A stretch of 40,221 bases of DNA from Sulfuricurvum sp. PD_MW2 (GTDB lineage: Bacteria > Campylobacterota > Campylobacteria > Campylobacterales > Sulfurimonadaceae): positions 1-40,221 of the forward strand of contig NZ_NSIU01000020.1 in the NCBI RefSeq assembly GCF_002633015.1, in the 5' to 3' direction. The first letter of the stretch is position 1. Each line of letters starts with the position of its first letter. Below the pieces are notes generated by a model. The model ran no database searches, was not told the DNA's origin, and saw only the letters and a program-made list of their open reading frames with translations. The position numbers and the translations under genes were made by a program. Of this stretch, positions 3 to 2,180 are shown in pieces.

Positions 3-116
3 ATTGAGTTATTGCTTCTTGATAAAAAATTGAGTTCAGTTATAGATAATCATGAAAGAATAACTGGTAAGCAAATATGTAACAAACTTTTGAATTTAAC
101 TGACCATAAAGAATAG
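3..116 (+). CDS. C-terminal fragment of an unidentified ORF cut by the window edge
   Basis: A frame is open from base 3 to a TAG at 114-116 and gives about 37 residues of ordinary composition, rich in Leu, Lys, Asp and Asn, including a stretch that could be a short helix-turn-helix (ERITGKQICNKLL). Its start lies outside the window, so it may be the tail of a longer gene. The stop falls directly before the GC-rich structured block. I do not recognise the family. It could also be a chance open frame, because 37 codons is short; accessory-element context makes a phage or plasmid gene plausible. Confidence 0.35.
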   Translation: MELLLLDKKLSSVIDNHERITGKQICNKLLNLTDHKE

Positions 117-268
117 GGGGCTGTCTGCGGGGGAGAATCCCCCTGACCCATAGTACGGAAGCACGAACGTGCGGACACTATTGGTGAGACTGGCTGATGC
201 CGATTGAGCAAGCCGCCTGGGGCGTGCCCCTCCATGCGGCGATTCGGCTATTCAGCCATAGTCACCAC
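115..268. other. GC-rich multi-hairpin block upstream of the Rep gene (possible origin or packaging structure, or structured RNA)
   Basis: Three consecutive foldbacks are readable. Hairpin A has 5 G at 129-133 pairing with 5 C at 139-143. Hairpin B has ATAGT 150-154 pairing with ACTAT 177-181, enclosing GCACG 161-165 with CGTGC 168-172. Hairpin C is a long imperfect stem: GGTGA 183-187 with TCACC 262-266, GGCTGA 192-197 with TCAGCC 252-257, GCCGA 199-203 with TCGGC 244-248, GCCGC 212-216 with GCGGC 236-240, and GGGGC 219-223 with GCCCC 226-230. The block is far richer in GC than its surroundings. Single-strand replication or packaging origins of Rep-encoding elements look like this, but a structured RNA cannot be excluded. 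Confidence 0.6.
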
Positions 269-652
269 ATAAAAATACTTTCCCATTCATAGATAAGCCG
301 TAGGCGTAACCCTGTCGATTAAATTCAAACGTCTTTTTAGGTTGCTCGCTGGTCGAAGCGCCGAGCACTTTGGAGTCATTTTCCCCCATATTGATAAAAA
401 TCTTGCAAAAAAAATTCAACTATTTTGCTACATAGTAAAGTTTTTTGAATTTTACTCCCTGAAATATGGGATTACAGAGCTTCAAGTTTACTATTGTCTA
501 ATTTTTTATTTTTTTATAGCTTTTCGTGTTTGCAAACATTTAGAAAATATTTTCACGTGTTAGAGGTCGAGGTTTTCGACAAGGCTTTCGGAGTGTTTTT
601 GGTAACACTCCGTTCCTCACATCAAATGCTATAAAAATGGAGAAAAAGAAAA
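269..652. other. AT-rich non-coding leader between the foldback block and the Rep gene
   Basis: I see no convincing gene here. The stretch contains a small foldback (GCTCG 344-348 with CGAGC 362-366), long A and T tracts between about 408 and 520, and a hairpin at 589-612 described separately. It probably holds the promoter and control sites of the Rep gene. A 73-codon frame at 342-563 is hydrophobic and AT-driven and was not accepted. Confidence 0.4.
589..612 (+). terminator. 9-bp hairpin in the Rep leader (attenuator or transcription terminator?)
   Basis: CGGAGTGTT (589-597) pairs with AACACTCCG (604-612) around a 6-nt T-rich loop, 40 bases ahead of the Rep start. No U-tract follows, so it is not a classical terminator. 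It may act as an attenuator or as a binding site for the Rep or HTH protein. Confidence 0.35.
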
Positions 653-1750
653 ATGCATTTACTTGATATAAACACACTTTCTGCAACAGCAAAAACTGTC
701 GGTGGAATTGATACCCTTTACTTTTTTTATGAAACAAATGCTGATTACATCAATCTGTTTCTAGATATACTCGATCAGATCGAAGATGGAAAAGCTCACT
801 TTTCAAAAAAAGACATCCCATATAAGAATAACGACATCGCAGTTGAAATCAACGGCTTTAAGTTCTATTACGGCGGATTCAAAGATTATTTTTACTGGCT
901 CAACAGTATAGATAATCTTTTCACATTTGGATTCAAAAGTCCTGATACGGTTCGTCAGCTCAATGATATTCAAGTGCAGATTAACGGAATAGGAAACTAT
1001 AGTATTGGATTAAGTGCAGTGTTGGCACTTGCTGATAATGTAGTCAAAGGATTTATTACGGGATTACGACCCATTACCCGAATCGACTTGAACGTATTTG
1101 TACAAGCTGACTTCTCATGGGTCAATACAGATATGTTTATTGCCCGTCAGTTGAAGCGAGAAACAATCATTAAAGAGATCGCATTAAGTCGTAGAAATGA
1201 AACAATCTATATTGGAAGCAACCCTTTCATGTTCCGTATGTATGACAAACTCACTGAATTGAAAAAGTCAAAGAAAAAAGAGATCATGAACGAATACTTC
1301 TTCAACAATGGTCTTTCTTTGAATGAGCCAATTACAAACATTGAATTTGAAATCCATAGAGCGTATCTAAAGCGTTTCAACATTAAAACTGTTGATGATG
1401 CCCTTGCCAATGCGGAAACACTTTTTAAACAGAGTATGGATGCTATACGCTTAGTTGATCTGAACACTGTAACAGATAAAGAATTGTCATCGGATAATCG
1501 CTATAGAGCAAAAACGCTTCCTATATGGGAACATATTAAAGATAGCTATACCATAAAAGAGTTTTTACAACTCAATTTGCCCTTAGAACGCATGAAGAGA
1601 AAACTCTATGTATATACGGGTGATGATGCTATTAAAGAGTATATGGCATTTGAGCATAAATGTCATTTGAATGGTATACGGCTTGATTATTGGTTTTTTG
1701 AAGAGGCTAAACGTCGTAAAACATTTAAAGAAAACGAACTGGCTTCATAA
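653..1750 (+). CDS. Putative replication initiation protein (rolling-circle/phage Rep-like)
   Basis: The 365-aa protein starts at an ATG with GGAG about ten bases upstream. An N-terminal GIDTLYFF segment (about residues 18-25), a central RIDLNVFV segment (about 143-150) and a later IEFEIHRAYLKRF stretch (about 231-243) fit the beta-strand layout of Rep_trans/phage gpII-type initiators, where the RIDL-like strand and a later catalytic Tyr are typical. I infer that family; I cannot point to a proven catalytic Tyr. It is followed after 10 bases by an HTH gene, as if co-transcribed, and preceded by a foldback-rich region that could be its origin. A basic C-terminus and many Lys and Asn codons match AT-rich accessory DNA. 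An alternative is another single-strand DNA-handling protein of a satellite element. Confidence 0.5.
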   Translation: MHLLDINTLSATAKTVGGIDTLYFFYETNADYINLFLDILDQIEDGKAHFSKKDIPYKNNDIAVEINGFKFYYGGFKDYFYWLNSIDNLFTFGFKSPDTVRQLNDIQVQINGIGNYSIGLSAVLALADNVVKGFITGLRPITRIDLNVFVQADFSWVNTDMFIARQLKRETIIKEIALSRRNETIYIGSNPFMFRMYDKLTELKKSKKKEIMNEYFFNNGLSLNEPITNIEFEIHRAYLKRFNIKTVDDALANAETLFKQSMDAIRLVDLNTVTDKELSSDNRYRAKTLPIWEHIKDSYTIKEFLQLNLPLERMKRKLYVYTGDDAIKEYMAFEHKCHLNGIRLDYWFFEEAKRRKTFKENELAS

Positions 1751-1760
1751 GGGCAGGGCA

Positions 1761-2018
1761 ATGGCAACAATAGATTTGATTACCAAAAGTGACTTAGTTG
1801 CATTTCAAAACAAAGTGATGGAACAATTAAAAGCACTGATACAGCCTGAAAAAGAGTTCATTACCGAAGGGGAGCTAATCACCCTTTTTGCATTTAATAA
1901 ATCGACATTGGCAAAAATGAGAATGAATGGGGAGATTCCCTATTATAAATTCGGCGGAAAACTGTTTTACAAAGCGGTTGAAGTAAATAGAATTATTGAA
2001 AGAAATCAGATTGCTTGA
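1761..2018 (+). CDS. Small helix-turn-helix (excisionase/MerR-type, HTH_17-like) DNA-binding protein
   Basis: The 85-aa protein starts at ATG 1761, chosen because a purine-rich GGGCAGGG ribosome site lies just ahead; an upstream extension would run through the Rep gene. Residues 35-80 read ITEGELITLF...NKSTLAKMRMNGEIPYYKFGGKLFY, the pattern of HTH_17/excisionase domains: a helix-turn-helix then a wing with the typical IPYYKxGxxxxY strand. The N-terminal 30 residues form a short amphipathic helix. Such proteins act as recombination directionality factors or local repressors in integrated elements. Its position between the Rep gene and the tRNA end supports an accessory-element role. The frame stays open for 25 codons past its TGA, which is treated as a finding. 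Confidence 0.7.
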   Translation: MATIDLITKSDLVAFQNKVMEQLKALIQPEKEFITEGELITLFAFNKSTLAKMRMNGEIPYYKFGGKLFYKAVEVNRIIERNQIA

Positions 2019-2037
2019 GAAAACTTAAGGCAAAAAG

Positions 2038-2060
2038 TGGTCACCCAAATGGTCACCCAA
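2038..2060 (+). repeat. Tandem direct repeat TGGTCACCCAA with 12-bp period
   Basis: TGGTCACCCAA occurs at 2038-2048 and again at 2050-2060. In the frame of the preceding HTH gene it encodes V-T-Q twice (VVTQMVTQ), followed by a TAA near 2096. It lies 45 bases from the tRNA-Glu 3' end and may mark the junction of the element or the decayed 3' end of an integrase gene. Confidence 0.6.
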
Positions 2061-2105
2061 CAAAACTTAAAGTGCTTGAAAGTACGGTAAATAGGGAGTT
2101 TAAAG

Positions 2106-2180
2106 TGGTGACCCCAAGGGGATTCGAACCCCTATGGCCAGAATGAAAATCTGGAATCCTAACCATTAGATGATGGGGCC
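2106..2180 (-). tRNA. tRNA-Glu (anticodon TTC), CCA encoded
   Basis: On the minus strand the acceptor stem GGCCCCA (2174-2180) pairs with TGGGGTC (2110-2116) with one G-U pair. The discriminator is A and CCA is encoded at 2106-2108. The anticodon arm is CCAGA-TTTTCAT-TCTGG, giving anticodon TTC (plus-strand bases 2145-2147), which reads Glu codons. The T arm has GGTTCGAATCC. All stems close, so the gene is intact. The accessory segment ends at its 3' side. Confidence 0.95.

Follow-up and report, generated by a model that had tools for sequence, protein, structure and literature searches.

A GC-rich hairpin block and its possible role as a single-strand origin in a small integrated element of Sulfuricurvum

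Known rolling-circle origins and the Sulfuricurvum locus

The best-studied elements comparable to the one described here are from Firmicutes. In the Rep_trans/MOBT group of initiators, which includes pT181 Rep, NicK of ICEBs1, and RelSt3 of ICESt3, the nic site is CT'AA in the loop of a G/C-rich hairpin (PMC9371924), and in most rolling-circle plasmids the single-strand origin (sso) lies upstream of the dso, or leading-strand origin (PMC4595007). The function of an sso likely depends on structure besides, or instead of, sequence. We examined a hairpin-rich block in the window, that is, the whole stretch of 40,221 nucleotides of Sulfuricurvum sp. PD_MW2 DNA analyzed here, which is contig C1 of a 76-contig, 2.26-Mb genome and whose first base is a contig end that falls within a mobile element. 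An initial annotation had offered an sso, a packaging signal, or a structured RNA as the identity of this block; the sso fits best, and the other two are without positive evidence. With moderate confidence, we read the block as an origin-associated hairpin, probably the sso, of a small integrated rolling-circle element.

Like the sso of rolling-circle plasmids and ICEBs1 (pT181/pBAA1 type, sso1), the block is non-coding, holds several stem-loops that are stable in single-stranded form, and lies near and upstream of a nick-type hairpin (320 bp off) and a Rep_trans-like gene. Also as in known sso, hairpins of related elements appear to keep their structure as their sequence changes; the likeness rests on structure and position, and ICEBs1 sso1, unlike the block, is downstream of oriT/nicK. 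The element family appears to recall Rep_trans/MOBT systems in the TRxDL...YxG...RIYNKxxE-like motifs of its initiators, in the GC-rich hairpin with a CTAGTAA/CTAATAA loop found in relatives, and in comprising integrated elements with an integrase (Int) and an HTH gene. It differs in that its initiators score below the Pfam cut-off, the nick hairpin is directly upstream of Rep, the hosts are Campylobacterota rather than Firmicutes, and the delimited elements are of 6.7-9.7 kb with no conjugation genes seen. Rep_trans-relaxase integrative and mobilizable elements (IME_oriT) are similarly small, with an integrase, a Rep_trans protein, and cargo, and they need a helper, as the present family may, but the present family targets tRNA 3' ends in several cases and carries largely anti-phage defence cargo, and its transfer is only predicted. 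A further parallel is found in filamentous phages, whose intergenic region comprises a packaging hairpin, the minus origin, the plus origin, and gene II; there, as in our locus, hairpins come first, followed by a nick origin (putative in our case) and then a Rep gene. Unlike in those phages, no coat or assembly genes were found, and the Rep family is not in the phage and viral collections.

The hairpin-rich block and the element around it

The hairpin-rich block is real. As shown in Table 1, it consists of one long imperfect hairpin and two small ones, and the five successive paired segments claimed in the initial annotation are all present, nested in the long hairpin, which has 29-31 pairs. 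The two smaller hairpins, the GC-rich composition in AT-rich surroundings, and the position directly after an open reading frame were also confirmed: GC content is 61.7% in 115-268, the most GC-rich 154-nt stretch of the whole window, compared with 24.6% in 1-114 and 34.1% in 269-652, and the preceding frame stops at 114-116, at the first bases of the block. The block does precede a Rep-like gene, as had been stated, but not directly, because 384 bp of AT-rich DNA, with the nick-type hairpin inside, intervene before the Rep start at 653.

The comparison with shuffled sequence favors the long hairpin more clearly than the block as a whole. With DNA parameters, the long hairpin (-20.8 kcal/mol) has the lowest hairpin energy of 1,002 overlapping 160-nt tiles covering the 40-kb window, the next distinct site being at -17.6, and with z values of -2.9 (+ strand) and -3.35 (- strand) it was matched by 0 of 200 dinucleotide shuffles on either strand. 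The whole block exceeds shuffles only moderately (z -1.9 to -2.95): folded as RNA, it gave z -2.8/-2.95, with 1-2 of 200 shuffles equally good, and folded as DNA, z -2.3 or -1.9, varying with parameters and boundaries. Therefore, much of its absolute stability comes from its 62% GC, and it falls outside the best ranks when 521 tiles are ordered simply by z.

Table 1. Positions of the features discussed (window coordinates unless a contig or locus is named)
Feature	Position	Strand	Details
Cargo reading frame, 3' end	3-116	+	38 codons visible, cut by contig start; direct reading
26-nt sequence GGGGGCTGTCTGC[GC]GGGGANANTCCC	116-141	+	Common to two other Sulfuricurvum genomes
Small hairpin GGGGGAGAATCCCCC	129-143	+	GGGGGA GAA TCCCCC
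Small hairpin GCACGAACGTGC	161-172	+	GCAC GAAC GTGC
Long imperfect hairpin, five stem segments	182-267		Proposed single-strand origin/origin-companion hairpin; folding, shuffles, tile ranking
Stem segment TGGTGA	182-187/262-267
Stem segment TGGCTGA	191-197/252-258
Stem segment GCCGA	199-203/244-248
Stem segment GCCGC	212-216/236-240
Stem segment GGGGC	about 218-222/230-234
Nick-type hairpin CGGAGTGTT-TTTGGT-AACACTCCG	589-612	+	Full sequence CGGAGTGTTTTTGGTAACACTCCG; proposed leading-strand origin (dso/nic)
Rep_trans-like replication initiator or relaxase	653-1750	+	365 aa; weak PF02486; family profile vs RepDE 4cwe; 31-member alignment
HTH_17 excisionase-like gene	1761-2018	+	PF12728 E 1.4e-6, above its cut-off
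Attachment-site repeat	2033-2129		Second copy at C14:1265-1360 beside integrase; 90% identity over 97 bp
tRNA-Glu (TTC), insertion target	2106-2180	-
Open reading frame, 1,925 aa	19212-24989	-	Side observation
Two further Rep genes, same genome (G000)	C33:732-1685; C50:74564-75520		44% identical to the window's Rep
Relics with the 5' part of the block	L058:7205-8700 (G030); L075:5550-7240 (G013)		One has a GGDEF-type gene
Conserved ~85-aa ORF	L059:8783-9040		Also in 10 other loci
Delimited related elements	L059, L060, L064, L068, L073, L074, L076		Rep_trans-like Rep, usually HTH gene, tyrosine integrase; often at tRNA genes
AACAACGAG...CGAGGCGTTAG motif	L112-L118		Genomes G007, G008, G016, G036, G136, G432, G509

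The order in the window is cargo end, block, nick-type hairpin, Rep, HTH gene, and tRNA-Glu. The attachment-site repeat covers the tRNA 3' end and its downstream flank, and its copy on C14 adjoins a tyrosine integrase that reads away from the repeat. Because this 97-bp copy adjoins an integrase, the element appears to bridge the gap between C1 and C14, with its middle part (cargo) outside the sequence read. We have intermediate confidence in the preferred reading as a whole, by which the block would be a non-coding stretch bordering the origin region in a small rolling-circle element integrated in the Sulfuricurvum tRNA-Glu gene.

The window's Rep scored 15.5 bits against PF02486, below the curated cut-off of 29.6, and we therefore call it Rep_trans-like and not a PF02486 member. 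PF02486 was weakly matched by 7 of 31 members of the Rep family (best E 1.1e-4), and the 31-member profile aligned, weakly (E 0.054), to residues 105-188 of RepDE 4cwe, the region that holds TRxDL...YxG...RIYNKxxE. Of 200 related genomes, 35 had Rep relatives, which were about 33-51% identical where full-length, and further ones were found at the family and order level. At the sensitivity used, searches of 72,556 plasmids, 50,697 phages, and 2.9 million viral contigs gave no Rep relatives, and the genome, viral, plasmid, and phage collections held no close Rep homologue. At 365 aa, the window's Rep is shorter than most relatives (428-470 aa), the C-terminal ~75 residues being absent, as they are in two other members.

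Related elements and their putative origin hairpins

A nick-type hairpin stands upstream of Rep in 30+ relatives, and in the window the segment around it (530-620) folds with z -3.8. Most relatives have a GC-rich hairpin directly upstream of Rep, for example TCAGGGGGTTCTAGTAACACCCCCTGA or GTCTGGGGATTCTAATAACATCCCCAGAC, and the loops of their nick hairpins, such as CTAGTAAC or CTAATAAC, contain CTAATAA or CTAGTAA in many cases, so that these hairpins appear to resemble Rep_trans/MOBT nic sites. The window's own loop (TTTTTGGTAAC/TTTTTGGTAA) is without an exact CT'AA, and its TTGGTAAC loop recurs in close relatives such as those at L083 and L089. The hairpin at 589-612, which the initial annotation did not name, is the likely leading-strand origin.

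Members of the family as a rule have a strong hairpin before the nick hairpin. In 43 of 46 relatives, the best hairpin within 160 nt upstream of the nick hairpin was stronger than 95% of controls, and the median was -16.2 kcal/mol for the 46 elements compared with -3.9 in 511 control segments (p 1e-27, a value that ignores relatedness among the elements and comes from controls that are mostly coding DNA). These 46 elements come from 61 loci, 15 of which were left out because a strict search gave no nick hairpin that could be used or because the upstream sequence was too short; hairpin energy separated family from control more cleanly than the base-pair count of the longest hairpin. In many relatives, this companion hairpin is 0-20 nt from the nick hairpin. 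The window is an outlier: about 320 bp separate its strong hairpin from the nick hairpin downstream, and the immediate 160 nt fold only weakly (-4.5). Because of this displacement it is by analogy that the block may be a displaced counterpart of the family's companion hairpin. Companion hairpins differ in sequence between subgroups, with pairing kept: both sides changed together at 3 pairs in one subgroup (5 sequences) and at 2 pairs in another (3 sequences). The compensatory changes looked for are thus suggestive, not strong, in the relatives' hairpins, few pairs and sequences being involved, and the window's hairpin itself is without an alignable homologue.

The sequence relatives of the block are few. 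The 26-nt pattern at its 5' end (Table 1) occurs in 3 of 41 genus genomes, with 0 control matches, and similarity to the block was confined to two genomes of the genus, G030 (79% over window 108-197) and G013 (27 bp at 93%), which share only its 5' part; the long hairpin was not alignable in either and had no orthologue in the collections searched. In the genome collection, the 26-mer matched these two loci and, by chance, two sites in GC-rich, apparently coding DNA of unrelated bacteria, and an exact motif scan of the viral contigs gave no match. Both loci read as relics that adjoin tRNA-Glu or its remnant, hold apparent integrase remnants and, in G013, the apparent end of an HTH gene, and have lost Rep. 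The outcome that would have refuted the initial annotation was seen only in part: the only two sequence homologues of the block sit in elements lacking Rep, but pairing changes on both sides do occur in the relatives' hairpins.

In the related elements, the order is cargo, often an ORF of ~85 aa, intergenic region, Rep, (HTH), and tyrosine integrase. Seven such elements in Campylobacterota are delimited by direct repeats of 19-53 bp and measure 6.7-9.7 kb. As judged from sequence, most of their cargo serves anti-phage defence, and it includes HaeII-type restriction together with a methylase and Vsr, GmrSD-like and HEPN proteins, Thoeris (ThsA-Macro and TIR), AAA ATPases, and a Shedu-like protein. 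In two further loci, which are not delimited, retron-type RT and Septu-like ATPases are upstream of Rep. Capsid, assembly, and conjugation genes were absent among the proteins scanned from the delimited relatives. With an integrase, direct-repeat ends, a relaxase-like gene, and no conjugation machinery seen, the elements would qualify as integrative and mobilizable elements.

Further features of the family were observed. The conserved ~85-aa ORF, whose family is unassigned, lies directly upstream of the origin hairpins, and it is often preceded by a recurrent ~365-aa protein without a Pfam match. A AACAACGAG...CGAGGCGTTAG motif, the ends of which we take to resemble integron attC boxes, occurs once per genome in seven relatives, just upstream of Rep, with no control match; the window's genome has no exact copy.

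Candidate functions of the block

If the block is the sso, the tyrosine integrase would excise the element, and Rep would nick the hairpin at 589-612, so that copying of the leading strand would proceed across Rep and around the remainder of the circle. The block would be the last part of the displaced single strand to be exposed, and its long stem would then fold and serve as the sso, at which host RNA polymerase or primase would lay the second-strand primer. We infer Rep nicking at 589-612, the nicked strand, sso function, and rolling-circle replication from these comparisons, and the direction of the nick because CTAA is on the Rep-coding strand in some relatives.

Three other functional readings draw on little beyond the position of the block. 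Because no transfer or capsid genes were seen in the delimited elements, these may need a helper, and the block could be a signal recognized by a conjugative element or a phage, either as an oriT accessory site or as a signal for packaging, in a satellite-like or mobilizable element unable to move on its own. The two Rep-less relics, which retained the 5' part of the block beside tRNA-Glu, would agree with this, although two relics make a very small sample. Filamentous phages have a packaging hairpin upstream of the origin as well. However, no helper was identified, 20 cargo proteins of related elements gave 0 matches to coat or assembly genes such as pI/Zot (the window's own cargo being outside the contig), and no member of the Rep family turned up in the phage records and viral contigs searched, so that we consider a helper-recognized signal unlikely. 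The packaging signal of the initial annotation is likewise without support: the scanned proteins of the delimited relatives include no phage morphogenesis gene, and the phage, plasmid, and viral-contig collections are without the Rep family. More doubtful is the wider proposal that the block is the transfer or packaging signal, read by a helper, of an undescribed class of Campylobacterota rolling-circle satellites that spread defence genes between tRNA sites.

The block could instead be a binding or cruciform site for Rep or the HTH protein, acting in origin recognition and not in second-strand priming, which we also regard as improbable. The companion hairpin is frequent in the family, and it also counts for this reading that the inverted repeat bound by a MOBT relaxase can lie some way from nic (PMC9371924). 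However, the bind site of RelSt3 and that of Rep_trans plasmids are downstream of nic (PMC9371924), whereas the window's hairpin is upstream, and because hairpin sequences differ strongly between members, they are ill-suited to sequence-specific binding.

A transcribed Rep leader that sets copy number in the manner of pT181-type plasmids, either as an antisense target or as an attenuator, appears less probable still. The block is on the Rep-coding strand upstream of Rep and has a strong RNA fold, but it lies 385 bp before the start codon with the nick hairpin between, has no promoter-like match upstream and no terminator-like site, and is without an Rfam match, and in relatives as well it is the nick hairpin, and not the start of Rep, that follows the hairpin. 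At curated and permissive thresholds, Rfam returned only the tRNA, plus a chance U12 match (E 3.5), and the proposal of a structured RNA is thus left unsupported.

Least probable by our estimate is a functionless chance remnant rich in GC (for example, a decayed gene or terminator), with which the moderate whole-block z and the few homologues would agree, but against which stand the shuffle result for the long hairpin, the regular presence of a strong hairpin before the nick hairpin in the family, and the retention of the 26-mer in three elements whose adjoining cargo contexts differ. Three further candidates were rejected: a retron ncRNA, because three different cargo contexts precede the block, with no RT seen next to it; a mobile repeat (MITE), because each of the 3 genomes (of 41) that have it carries a single copy, at an equivalent position; and an intrinsic terminator, because the region has no terminator-like site.

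Overall, an origin-associated hairpin, probably an sso, is the reading of the block that we prefer. Its structure is of a known kind, and the element family with its defence cargo is the more interesting result; we found no description of this family in the open-access literature, which is weak evidence of novelty. The block leads to a Campylobacterota family of compact integrated elements with restriction-modification, Thoeris, GmrSD/HEPN, and other defence genes as cargo, and if their hairpins are second-strand origins, the family would provide a tractable model for the replication and movement of small defence islands outside Firmicutes.
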